Part shown: positions 12,591-54,172 of the stretch, one piece after another | Position numbering within the stretch: the first letter of the stretch is position 1 | Layout: every line of letters starts with the position of its first letter | Assembly (NCBI RefSeq): GCF_039962115.1 | Contig: NZ_JAMPKJ010000014.1 | Location: 1 to 64,000, forward strand | Reading direction: 5' to 3' | Source of the DNA: Funiculus sociatus GB2-C1 | GTDB taxonomy: Bacteria; Cyanobacteriota; Cyanobacteriia; Cyanobacteriales; FACHB-T130 | DNA length: 64,000 nucleotides | Made by a program: the position numbers and the translations under genes | Notes under the pieces: model-generated | Told to the model about the DNA's origin: nothing | The model's database searches: none | The model's input: only the letters and a program-made list of their open reading frames with translations

Positions 12591-14332
<1,742 letters not shown>

Positions 14333-18389: not shown

Positions 18390-18452
18390 ATGACTAATGG
18401 CTAATTGTTTATTGTCATTAGCTATTAGTCATTAGTCATTAGTCATTAGCCA
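18390..18452. repeat. STRR foldback (ATTAGTC heptamers)
   Basis: GACTAATGGCTAAT is followed by four or more ATTAGTC units. The array ends 7 bp before the start codon of the CpcT-like gene. Confidence 0.75.
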
Positions 18453-18459
18453 TTTTATT

Positions 18460-19700: not shown

Positions 19701-19789
19701 GTGGCTGGGGACTGGGGGCTGGGGACTGGGGACAAGGGACTAGGGACTAGGTAAGAAACCTTCTAATTCCCAATCCCCAATCCCCAATC
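19701..19789. repeat. STRR foldback with G-quadruplex motif (GGGGACT units)
   Basis: At 19705-19732 four G-tracts of four to five G, spaced by ACT or CT, meet a classical G4 rule. After a spacer, CCCCAAT units follow and pair with the G-rich arm apart from one recurrent mismatch. Confidence 0.8.
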
Positions 19790-29185: not shown

Positions 29186-32100
29186 TTAGAGCCGCTCCAG
29201 TCGCTCACGCAGAATTTCTGCCTGTTTCTCAGCTTCGGCTAGTGAGTCCCGCGCCTTTTGCACCACGTCAGGTGCGGCTTTCTCGACAAAATTGGCATTG
29301 CCTAAACGCCCGGAAAGGGATTTGGCTTCGGCTTCAACTTTGCTCAAGTTTTTATCTAGTTTGGCACGTAGTGCGTCCACATCGACGACTCCGGCAAGGG
29401 GAATTAAAACTTGGATTGTGCCAACGACACCAGCGATCGCTTTTGGCATAGCACTTTCTTCACTGTTCTCCTGTTCTGGTGGTCTTAAATCGGTTTCTGG
29501 GGGATGCGTGTAGCCAAGTTGTTTTGATGCTGTATCATTTTTGTCAATTTTGCCTTTGGCAATAATTTGTGTAACCTTTGACACTACAAAAAGACAAAGA
29601 AGCACCACAAATAAAAATGGCAGCAAAAACAAAAATGGTAACAAAATCGGGGCATTGGCACTAGATTTTTCCTTGACAGATGCCGCGAGATTTGGTTCCG
29701 TAGAAGACGAGAGGGCAGACTTTACCTCTGCGGATGAATCCGGCTTTAATATTTCGGTAGATGACGGGGTATCTTTTGCGCCCTTGATGGTTAATTTCTC
29801 TACCTTTGCCAAGTCTTGAATATAAGACTCCCCTAAGTTTAGGATATGCCGTTCCTTGTCGCTTTGGGTCTGCAAAATTACTGGAACCTTCACCCCAGGC
29901 TTGATGTCAGCTTCTGCCCGAAGATTGCGAATGGTGCGGATAGTGCCGAATAGCAATTCAAATTGCTGTTCTTTATCTGGGTCGATGAGTGCGGGATCTG
30001 CTTCGGGATAAGATTGTAACGCCAAAGCTTTGCCTTCACCAGCTTGAGTGAGAGTATGCCAAATTTCTTCAGTGATGTGAGGCATGAAGGGATGGAGTAA
30101 TTTTAGAATCCCTTCCAGCACATAGGCAAGCGTCTGCTGGGCAACTAGCCGCGATGCTGCTGGTGCTTCCGGACGCAGGCGAGGTTTTACCAGTTCAATG
30201 TACCAGTCGCAGAAGTCACCCCAAATAAATTCGTAAAGTCCTTTGGCAGCTTCCCCTAGTCCGTAGTTGTCGATGTATTGACTACTTTGCTGCACTACTT
30301 GATGGTAGCGGGAGAGAATCCAGCGATCGCATAATTCCAATGCCTCTGTTGCGGGGTTCCCCAGCTGTTGCGGCGTTCGACCATCCAGATTCATCATCAC
30401 AAACCGGGCAGCATTCCACAGCTTGTTAGTGAAATTGCGCGATGCTTCCACCGATGCCGATTCATCCGTCTTGCGATTGTATTCTAGGCGGATATCTTGA
30501 CCTGCACCAACCACTTCCTTAATCAGAGAATAGCGCAAAGCATCAGTGCCGTATTTGTCAATCAGCAACAGCGGATCGATACCATTGTTGGCAGACTTAG
30601 ACATCTTCTTGCCATTCTCATCCAGTACCAAACCGTGGATGTAAACGTCCTTGAAGGGCATTTGACCTGTGAAATGTCCAGCCATCATCGTCATTCTGGC
30701 AACCCAGAAGAAGATGATGTCAAAGCCAGTAACGAGGGTAGCGGTCGGGTAGTAAGTTGTCAAATCCTGGGTTTGTTCCGGCCAACCTAGAGTAGAAAAA
30801 GGCCACAATCCAGAAGAGAACCAGGTATCTAGCACATCTGGATCTTGTTCTAGTTTGACATTTTCGCCAAATTTTGCAACCGCTTTTTCTTTTGCTTCTG
30901 TCTCGTTTTGCGCCACCACAAACGGCGTGTTGTCGGTAATTTCACCACCAGTTTCGCTGACTGCATACCAGGCAGGAATTTGGTGTCCCCACCAAAGTTG
31001 GCGAGAGATGCACCAATCTTGTAGTTTGACTAGCCAATCCCGATAAACCTTAGTCCAACGCTGGGGAATAAACTCTGGGGAACTTTTATCGTCTAAGAAT
31101 TGTAACGCCCGGTCAGCGAGGGGGCGAATTTTGACAAACCACTGAGTAGAGAGGAGGGGTTCGACCGGGACTTTACCGCGATCGCTATAAGGAACCGTAT
31201 GCTTATAATCCTCTATCTTGACCAAAAACCCGTCTGATTCCAGTCGCTGCACCACATTTTTCCGGGCAACAAAGCGGTCTTGTCCCTGGAACTCCCCAGC
31301 ATTTTCGTTTAAAGTGCCGTCCTTATTCATGATGTTGATAAACGGCAAATTGTGGCGCTTACCCATCGCAAAGTCGTTGGGGTCGTGGGCTGGTGTCACC
31401 TTCACGCAACCAGTCCCAAAGGCAGGATCGACCAATTCATCGGCAATAATCGGAATTTCCCGCTGCATAATTGGCAGCATCAGCGTCTTCCCAATCAAAT
31501 CTTTGTAGCGGTCATCATTGGGATTCACTGCCACCGCCGTATCTCCCAGCATCGTCTCCGGTCGAGTTGTCGCCACCTCCATAAAGCCAGAACCATCCGT
31601 GAGGGGATAGCGGAAGTGCCACAGATTACCGTTAACTTCCTTGTTTTCCACCTCCAAGTCAGAAACCGCAGACTGAGTTCCAGGACACCAGTTCACCAGG
31701 TAATTGCCGCGATAGATCAACCCTTCCTCATACATTCGGGTAAAGGCTTCCAGTACCGCTTTAGATAAGCCTTCATCCAGCGTGAAGCGTTCCCGCGACC
31801 AATCTACCGAAACGCCCAAACTCCGCAGTTGGTTAACAATCTTACCCCCAGATTCAGTTTTCCACTGCCAAGCTTTTTCGAGGAATGCTTCGCGCCCTAA
31901 CTCAAAGCGAGTTTTACCTTCTTTTTTAAGTTGCTTTTCCAGAATCGTTTGCACTGCAATACTCGCGTGGTCGGTTCCCGGTACCCACAAGGTATTGCGC
32001 CCTTTCATTCGGTGGTAGCGGACGAGGGTATCAATCAGGATACTCTCGAAGGCGTGTCCCATGTGCAAGCTACCCGTGACGTTGGGCGGGGGAATGACGA

Positions 32101-32230
32101 TGCAGTAGGGTTCGCCAGGATGATTGGGGTCTGCTTGGAAGATGTGGTTTTCTTCCCAGAATTTTTGCCACTTGGTGTCGGTGGTTTTGGCGTCGTATTG
32201 GCTGGCGAGGGTGGGGATTGTTGCGGTCAT
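29186..32230 (-). CDS. valS: Valyl-tRNA synthetase with membrane-segment insertion
   Basis: A 1014-residue class I aminoacyl-tRNA synthetase charging tRNA-Val in the cytoplasm. It shows the HIGH-type [14 protein letters not shown], the editing domain ([15 protein letters not shown], then [15 protein letters not shown]) and KMSKS in [10 protein letters not shown]. The anticodon-binding domain follows, then at residues about 815-922 an insertion rich in Ser, Glu and Lys with a hydrophobic segment at about 860-882, and finally the C-terminal tRNA-binding coiled coil. The insertion adds about 110 residues to the family's usual plan. Membrane attachment of other cyanobacterial synthetases by appended CAAD domains is known. 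Here I do not see the CAAD consensus. Confidence 0.96.
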
Positions 32231-47422: not shown

Positions 47423-47427
47423 ACAAA

Positions 47428-47498
47428 TGGGTAATAGGTAGTAGGTAATAGGTAATAGGGCTAGATTTTCCTACCAATTACCCATTACCGTTTACCTA
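47428..47498. repeat. STRR foldback (GGTAATA units)
   Basis: Four GGTAATA or GGTAGTA units are followed by the complementary TACCAATTACCCATTACC. The array lies between cbiX and sipA and ends 6 bp before the sipA start. Confidence 0.75.
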
Positions 47499-49327: not shown

Positions 49328-49447
49328 AGGGAGTGGGGATTGGGGACTGGGGGCTGGAGGCTAGGTAGTGAGGGCTGGGGACTAGGGACTGGGTAAGATT
49401 CTCCCCAATCCCCAATCCCCAATCCCCAATTCCCAATTCCCAATTCC
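49328..49447. repeat. STRR foldback with G-rich arm (GGGGATT/GGGGACT units)
   Basis: The G-rich left arm holds several tracts of three to five G, then CCCCAAT and CCCAATT units. It lies between the acyltransferase start and the pentapeptide gene stop, so it may act on either. Confidence 0.75.
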
Positions 49448-51421: not shown

Positions 51422-51592
51422 ATTGCAGCCTGGAAGGATATGGCGAGAAAAAATTTCTCCTTATCCCTAGTCCCTAGCCCCTAGTCCCTAGCCCCCAGTC
51501 CGATTGCAGCCTGGAAGGATATGGCGAGAAAAAATTTCTCCTTGTCCCCAGCCCCCAGTCCCCAGTCCCTACTCCCTAGCCCCCAGTCCCTT
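51422..51592. repeat. Tandem duplication of an 81-bp unit with STRR content
   Basis: The unit beginning ATTGCAGCCTGGAAGGATAT is repeated at 51503. Each copy has an AGAAAAAAATTTCT dyad followed by C-rich heptamers of the CCCTAGT or CCCCAGT kind. It runs up to the stop of the next minus-strand gene. Confidence 0.85.
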
Positions 51593-54034: not shown

Positions 54035-54167
54035 AGGGGGGACTAGGGATTGGGGATTGGGGACTGGGGATTGAGGATTGGGAGTAGAGGATTGGGGAAT
54101 TGGGAAAAAGTCTTACCTAGTTCCTAGTTCCTAGTCCCTAGTCCCTAGTCCCCAGCCCCCAGTTCCC
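54035..54167. repeat. STRR foldback with G-quadruplex motif
   Basis: On the left are GGGGATT, GGGACTA and GGGGACT units giving several tracts of three to six G; on the right CCTAGTT, CCCTAGT and CCCCAGC units. It lies between the permease stop and the YcgQ-like start, within the presumed operon. Confidence 0.75.
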
Positions 54168-54172
54168 TGACA

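Follow-up and report, generated by a model that had tools for sequence, protein, structure and literature searches.

The valyl-tRNA synthetase (ValRS) gene was located on the minus strand of the window, which here means the whole stretch of 64,000 nucleotides that was analysed. The equivalog profiles NF004349 and TIGR00422 matched the predicted protein far above their cut-offs (NF004349: 1222.6 bits against a cut-off of 704), and Pfam analysis revealed tRNA-synt_1, Anticodon_1 and Val_tRNA-synt_C in the open reading frame of an otherwise complete ValRS. Since the equivalog profile and the catalytic, anticodon and arm domains were all present, the protein could be assigned as a valine--tRNA ligase. 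No other full-length ValRS match was present in the whole genome. The features of the gene are as follows.

29186..32230, minus strand: ValRS gene (valS), 1014 aa, single copy (ORF, equivalog profiles, Pfam domains)
29876..30328, minus strand: anticodon-binding domain, Anticodon_1, residues 635-785 (PF08264, 157.2 bits)
29444..29785, minus strand: insert at the 820 site, residues 816-929, 114 aa (flank-anchored comparison with relatives)
29654..29785, minus strand: N-side insert linker, residues 816-859, rich in Ser/Glu/Lys/Pro (sequence; AF2 pLDDT block means 23-27 for residues 821-860, no structure in the model)
29579..29653, minus strand: putative membrane segment, residues 860-884 (KD19 3.03; LPF..LLP.L pattern also in loci L010/L011 and L216)
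29609..29646, minus strand: 18-bp tandem repeat, 2.1 copies (TRF and repeat search; LLPFLF encoded twice in frame)
29444..29578, minus strand: C-side insert linker, residues 885-929, Lys-rich at its start, then Pro/Glu-rich (sequence; AF2 pLDDT block means 23-40)
29189..29383, minus strand: C-terminal coiled-coil tRNA-binding arm, Val_tRNA-synt_C, residues 950-1014 (PF10458, 67.6 bits)

The first-pass annotation of this DNA had described about 110 extra residues at 29460-29790, between the anticodon-binding domain and the C-terminal coiled coil, and had proposed an alignment with other cyanobacterial ValRS proteins. The alignment placed the insert at residues 816-929, a few bases away from that estimate, and the Pfam domains (635-785 and 950-1014) lay on its two sides as described. 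The 820 site held 114 residues in the window ValRS against 8-20 in relatives without a long insert and, in 81 of the 105 parsed loci (duplicates included), exactly 9, which leaves a net excess of roughly 105 residues. The hydrophobic stretch, earlier estimated at about 23 residues, was a run of 25 residues (860-884) without D/E/K/R/H/N/Q. Its KD19 of 3.03 was not reached by any of 10,000 shuffles of the insert, and outside it no 19-mer of the protein exceeded a KD19 of 2.13. Proline occurred at positions 2, 6 and 12 of the run, and the first 15 residues of the C-side linker contained four K/R and two D/E. Genome G060, of the same species, and Trichocoleus sp. FACHB-40, whose ValRS was 97% identical to that of the window across the C-terminal 404 aa, both have the same insert with few differences; an assembly error is thus unlikely.

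Relationship of the insert to the CAAD domain

According to the main text of PMC4893482, the ValRS of Anabaena is anchored to thylakoids by a CAAD domain, the removal of which makes the enzyme soluble while affecting catalysis little. In the same paper, subunits of the ATP synthase are reported to co-purify by way of CAAD, and the points at which CAAD is inserted are placed on the side of the synthetase that faces away from the tRNA. The window insert occupies a class I synthetase CAAD insertion point described there, the 820 site. A ValRS with CAAD (PF14159) at 820 shares with the window protein the enzyme and the insertion site; both inserts consist of a hydrophobic segment flanked by flexible linkers, and both are limited to some lineages. 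In contrast, no sequence similarity between the two could be detected, and a single 25-residue run stands in the window insert against two helices in CAAD.

The lack of the CAAD consensus had been noted in the first-pass annotation, and the profile search that it suggested bore this out, with no significant CAAD match across the insert. Searched with the HMMER filters on, neither the whole window ValRS nor its insert gave a PF14159 match up to an E of 10. Two further CAAD profiles, one made from 75 CAAD inserts of position 820 (CAAD820) and the other from 35 of position 750 (CAAD750), were run without filters. Each of them recognised every sequence of the opposite set, with at least 53.9 and at least 49.7 bits, whereas the window insert received 3.3 bits from the CAAD820 profile and -1.8 bits from the CAAD750 profile, within its shuffle controls. 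The six non-CAAD inserts of the window, L068, L010, L011, L019 and L021 scored 0.6-4.9 bits (CAAD820) and -1.8 to 0.6 bits (CAAD750); the 95% points of 200 block shuffles per insert, 1.7-6.4 bits, were all above the scores of the six. The inserts of L216, L227 and L232 received -0.8 to 5.1 bits. By direct reading, the GxxY/FxxWF-type second-helix motif present in most CAAD inserts examined was absent from the window insert, which thus lacks their GYxxWF-type second helix and has an additional Pro-rich core, LPFxxLLPxL with two prolines, for which no counterpart was seen in CAAD. KD19 ranged over 1.47-2.84 in the 75 CAAD820 inserts and 1.91-2.94 in the 35 CAAD750 inserts; one further CAAD insert, that of L225 in another order, reached 3.18, above the value of the window.

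These results bear on the possibility that the insert is an eroded CAAD, in which a domain at the 820 site lost one helix and diverged beyond recognition, persisting either as a tether or as a mere relic. The shared site would agree with such a history. A CAAD/no-CAAD difference with shared linker ends could also be observed at the 750 site, where the CAAD inserts of G159/G085 (L174, L176), two genomes from the family of G044, share both of their ends with a 30-residue piece in G044 (L036); this piece is most easily taken as the linker scars of a lost CAAD, insertion into an existing linker being the alternative. Against erosion stand the shuffle-level scores of the six inserts and the equally low values of L216, L227 and L232, when true CAADs from the other site are recognised so readily, as well as the two-Pro core. 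Overall, erosion appears unlikely for the window insert.

CAAD itself was not missing from the window genome. It was found above the cut-off in just two short ORFs of 156 and 159 aa, neither of them ValRS. These resemble the stand-alone CAAD proteins CurT/CURT1 and, unlike the insert, are separate genes outside any synthetase. In all nine genomes with a non-CAAD insert described below, the only ORFs with a CAAD match (E up to 0.001) were 153-232 aa long, too short for a class I synthetase.

Distribution of the inserts and the ValRS tree

The distribution was evaluated in three sets. Among the named records, the best 80 loci by likeness to the C-terminal 404 aa of the window protein, among the matches listed, carried an insert at 820 in 69 cases (67 CAAD and 2 non-CAAD) and none in 11; the two non-CAAD loci of these best 80 were L082 (Trichocoleus FACHB-40) and L133 (Coleofasciculaceae SM2_1_6). 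The order survey covered 166 genomes, with the ValRS C-terminus found in 159 and a reading obtained for 152 (150 from ORF length and two from loci); G075, G080, G084, G132, G137, G150 and G158 were matched and left unread. A non-CAAD insert at 820 was present in 6 of the 152 (the window genome G000, G060, G003, G004, G025 and G051), so most cyanobacterial ValRS proteins do not carry it. The first-pass annotation had named two outcomes that would refute its reading, the presence of the insert in most of these proteins and a significant CAAD match over the whole insert, and neither of them occurred. CAAD at 820 was found in eight genomes of this survey, all of family f33. In the class survey of 145 genomes (140 matched; 13 of the 145 shared with the order set), the fetched long ORFs included 41 with an 820 insert, of which 38, from other orders, were CAAD and three non-CAAD (G170, G238 and G249), and two with CAAD at 750. 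ORF length served as the first sieve, and genomes with ORFs below about 965 aa, most of which were not retrieved, were taken as insert-free. The class-survey genomes G242, G260, G265 and G269, with short ORFs, were left out, and neither the masked G176 nor G205, where a stop falls within the region, was counted as an insert carrier. Together, the two surveys yielded 55 genomes with an 820 insert, 46 with CAAD and nine without.

Within the family of the window genome, G001 had no 820 insert. Another member, G002, showed no ValRS match in a genome 99% complete, just matches at the level of IleRS or other synthetases, which may be an assembly gap or a real absence.

The non-CAAD hydrophobic inserts differ from one another, and the nine genomes fell into four groups on the ValRS tree, the backbones of F and S being not statistically separable. 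Group F (Trichocoleus-like) consists of the window genome, G060, G003 and G004. Group F2 is G170 alone (locus L216), the one genome sampled of another order. Group S is the Coleofasciculaceae pair G025 and G051, and group T includes G238 (L227) and G249 (L232), with the segment RPVIVMLVLLTxxYFxLDSLVY. Within group F, the window and L010 were 87% identical in the core, 44% in the segment and 40% in the linkers. The motif [IL][FL]LPF[LI]xLLP[FL]L was kept between genera g1 and g4 despite the 44% segment identity, and the same LPF..LLP motif recurs in G170, where the segment reads IFLPFILLLPFLVLV as compared with IFLPFLLLLPLLFLV in L010.

Tree rows were chosen by hand (27 and 25 of the 80 named loci in the two trees; 47 rows in the topology tests), leaving out the duplicates L067-L071 and L073 and fragments below 880 aa or 860 aa, respectively. 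In the tree of 101 rows built without the inserts, F stood among order members that are insert-free or have CAAD at other places, T inside a group whose ten other rows all carry CAAD at 820, and F2 in a group mixing CAAD820 and insert-free rows. The placement of S differed between the two quick trees. Two of these positions are what erosion of CAAD would produce, namely the mixed surroundings of G170 and, above all, the nesting of G238/G249 among CAAD820 rows, for which CAAD was probably the earlier state; the insert of L227/L232 is possibly half a CAAD. G238 and G249 belong to family f56, and the ten other f56 members in the class survey all have CAAD at 820. For the window clade, a tree that unites F and all CAAD820 rows in a single clade was rejected (p-AU 1.65e-05, 47 rows), which counts against erosion there, although repeated loss would also give that result.

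A clade of F with S was not rejected (p-AU 0.259, 47 rows), and forcing F and F2 into one clade cost 63.6 log units with a borderline p-AU of 0.041. Profile comparison of the F and S insert types found no relation; in pairwise shuffles, 12 of 2000 was obtained for the pairs L010-L021 and L011-L021. The segments of the window and L216 scored 72 against each other, compared with a maximum of 51 in 2000 shuffles and at most 57 for the remaining hydrophobic segments, pooled from all loci that had been retrieved (144 in total), and the L010-L216 score of 68 compared with 50 for such other segments. The score of 57 against the window segment came from a stretch that resembles helix 1 of ABC sugar permeases. 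Due to this stretch, the likeness between the window and G170 segments is graded as suggestive, and not as proof, of a common origin.

Constraint and origin of the insert DNA

Selection on the gene was estimated from dN/dS. The ValRS core showed strong purifying selection in four pairs (0.057-0.128). The segment and the linkers gave 0.757 and 0.581 for window-L010, 0.355 and 0.323 for L010-L011, and 0.238 and 0.633 for L019-L021, and the window-L082 pair had too few changes to define a segment value. In neutral simulations to the same identity, a KD19 at least as high as observed was retained in 566 of 4000 runs from the window to L010 and in 17 of 4000 in the opposite direction; the corresponding 1350 of 4000 and 367 of 4000 for the S and T types were unremarkable. 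The segment is under weak or mixed constraint, which perhaps maintains its hydrophobicity but not its exact sequence.

The short A-rich repeats mentioned in the first-pass annotation could be traced to a single tandem of 18 bp and 2.1 copies, T-rich on the coding strand. The accompanying proposal, that the segment came from an STRR-like array read in frame, was rejected. STRR (short tandemly repeated repeats) is the name for cyanobacterial arrays of this kind; they and the insert both contain short tandem repeats, but the insert has a period of 18 and two copies and not a period of 7, and a heptanucleotide array or significant repeat copies elsewhere were both absent. The suggested repeat comparison of the insert DNA with the genome was carried out and gave no significant second copy (next best E 0.16). 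STRR-like arrays with a period of 7 or its multiples are common elsewhere in the window, at 18414-18454, 19705-19748, 47426-47459, 49329-49444, 51464-51590 and 54038-54168, and a 9-bp GCCCATGCC array of 8.8 copies lies at 12600-12678. The 820 linkers of L018, L022, L062, L155 and L175 carry small additions of Gly and Lys, similar to PLLKGGDGG or PPLGKGG, which gave the impression of a dispersed repeat read in frame.

Searches for a donor protein in Pfam and PDB sequences and with a segment profile gave just weak matches. On 60 relatives, the LPF..LLP segment profile picked up three ValRS proteins and, at E 0.005-0.1, another 14 weak matches; the highest-ranking of the 14, in G002, lay in T-rich DNA with in-frame stops and was taken as chance. 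The lack of a donor and of a second copy, the T-rich strand and the in-frame duplication would fit growth of the insert from linker DNA.

Such growth is also the basis of a neutral explanation, in which linker expansion and a T-rich slippage duplication made the hydrophobic stretch by accident, with no membrane and no role involved. The fast divergence of the linkers (40% identity from the window to L010), the segment dN/dS of 0.757 in that pair, the 58% T of the segment's coding strand with its 18-bp duplication, and the failure of the donor and genome searches are all compatible with it. On the other hand, hydrophobic inserts recur in four groups at a known anchor site and persist in two genera, and the hydrophobicity of the window segment exceeds that of the 110 measured CAAD inserts, L225 being the one further CAAD insert that is higher. 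In addition, carrying 25 apolar residues in a free stretch should presumably come at a cost to an enzyme that is both essential and soluble. A purely neutral insert is hence considered quite improbable.

A putative membrane tether at the 820 site

The reading that we prefer, with a probability of roughly 0.6, is that the 820 insert is a membrane tether which serves ValRS in the way that CAAD does elsewhere, although it cannot be recognised as a CAAD. It is read as a tether since CAAD, at the same point, tethers the Anabaena enzyme (main text of PMC4893482). The data themselves show the insert, where it lies, how hydrophobic it is, that it does not resemble CAAD and that different non-CAAD hydrophobic inserts recur at this site; from these we infer membrane binding, a thylakoid location, the topology and the replacement of CAAD function. 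Support for the tether comes, besides the Anabaena precedent, from the many CAADs at this position, the high KD19, the recurrence in four groups, the short ORFs to which the CAADs found in all nine genomes are confined, the conserved LPF..LLP motif and the flanking Lys/Arg. It is weakened by the limited constraint on the segment, the higher KD19 of the L225 CAAD, the single AF2 helix, the poor match to a single span and the lack of an insert in G001. The window protein is an uncommon ValRS variant, probably membrane-tethered and likely functional. The first-pass annotation had proposed an independent or eroded anchor; an insert with no CAAD signal at the site of CAAD is in line with it, and for the window lineage an independent or replaced anchor is favoured over extreme erosion.

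In the proposed arrangement, a long flexible linker would leave the surface loop that lies between the anticodon domain and the tRNA arm. A hydrophobic stretch of about 25-29 residues, prolines included, would then enter a membrane, which the analogy to CAAD suggests to be most likely that of the thylakoid, and the second linker would return to the arm. The segment is expected to dip in and return (monotopic), since the ValRS body and the arm should both remain cytoplasmic to grip the tRNA; a single span would place the arm (950-1014), which is C-terminal to the insert, across the membrane. The flanking charges point the same way. Lys/Arg occurred on both flanks in eight of the nine non-CAAD segments, the N flank of L216 having none, and this pattern, together with the proline in the middle of the F segment, favours a dip-and-return path. 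Judged from these sequence features, the arm position and the charge pattern would be a poor match to a simple single span. Caveolin, oleosin and PglC have membrane anchors of the monotopic or re-entrant type, with a proline at the centre. Their apolar segment, central Pro and cytoplasmic flanks are what the window segment would need, and the comparison is an analogy of expected topology only.

The AF2 model of the full window ValRS (11 rows) was poor, with a mean pLDDT of 45.3, and was kept out of the topology evidence. It placed a single helix at 870-891 in the insert (block means 30-45, nearly all below 50) with no re-entrant hairpin, and helices at 951-977 and 987-1013 in the tRNA arm (block means 70-87). 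The CAAD control L083 was modelled with two helices, 235-259 and 265-284.

A wider and more tentative proposal, which we would place somewhat short of even odds, treats the 820 site as a socket. Selection would keep the tethering and not CAAD as such, and the socket would have received or exchanged CAAD and a minimum of three unrelated anchors of a single segment each, the LPF..LLP anchor having reached two distant ValRS backbones by transfer or convergence. The survey results suggest that some lineages may have swapped or independently gained a different membrane tie of ValRS. There is no settled explanation for the attachment of some cyanobacterial synthetases to thylakoids. The ATP synthase link of Anabaena runs through CAAD itself (main text of PMC4893482), so that non-CAAD anchors separate location from partners; if ValRS reaches the thylakoids with these anchors too, it would be the location that matters, and not the partners of CAAD. 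Moreover, counts of membrane-bound synthetases based on PF14159 may be too low, since non-CAAD anchors are missed by profile searches.

Among the titles and abstract openings listed from PMC, which leave many subscription papers outside, no description of a non-CAAD synthetase anchor at the 820 site or of a split ValRS was found, and the main text of PMC4893482 contained no mention of a split, single-transmembrane or degenerate CAAD. Interrupted or divided ValRS genes were encountered at several loci. L212 (G205:C71:9023-13000) has one in-frame stop before the tRNA arm, giving ORFs of 965 and 132 aa in the same frame, and at L255 (G254:C1:1719500-1724200) ValRS is spread over ORFs of 650 and 570 aa, which match overlapping parts of the window protein (residues 7-579 and 346-1011). 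In family f28, ValRS is encoded by two adjacent genes at L193 (G121:C1:4451000-4459000), L194 (G136:C8:53000-61000) and L195 (G162:C13:1-8000). The first gene ends after a 750-site CAAD (127-146 bits), and the second, an ORF of 171-182 aa with its own ATG, encodes the remainder including the tRNA arm; the spacing from stop to ATG is 75 and 96 nt, or an ATGA overlap in L195. Judged by this gene layout, the split ValRS of f28 is a natural synthetase fission at the membrane anchor.
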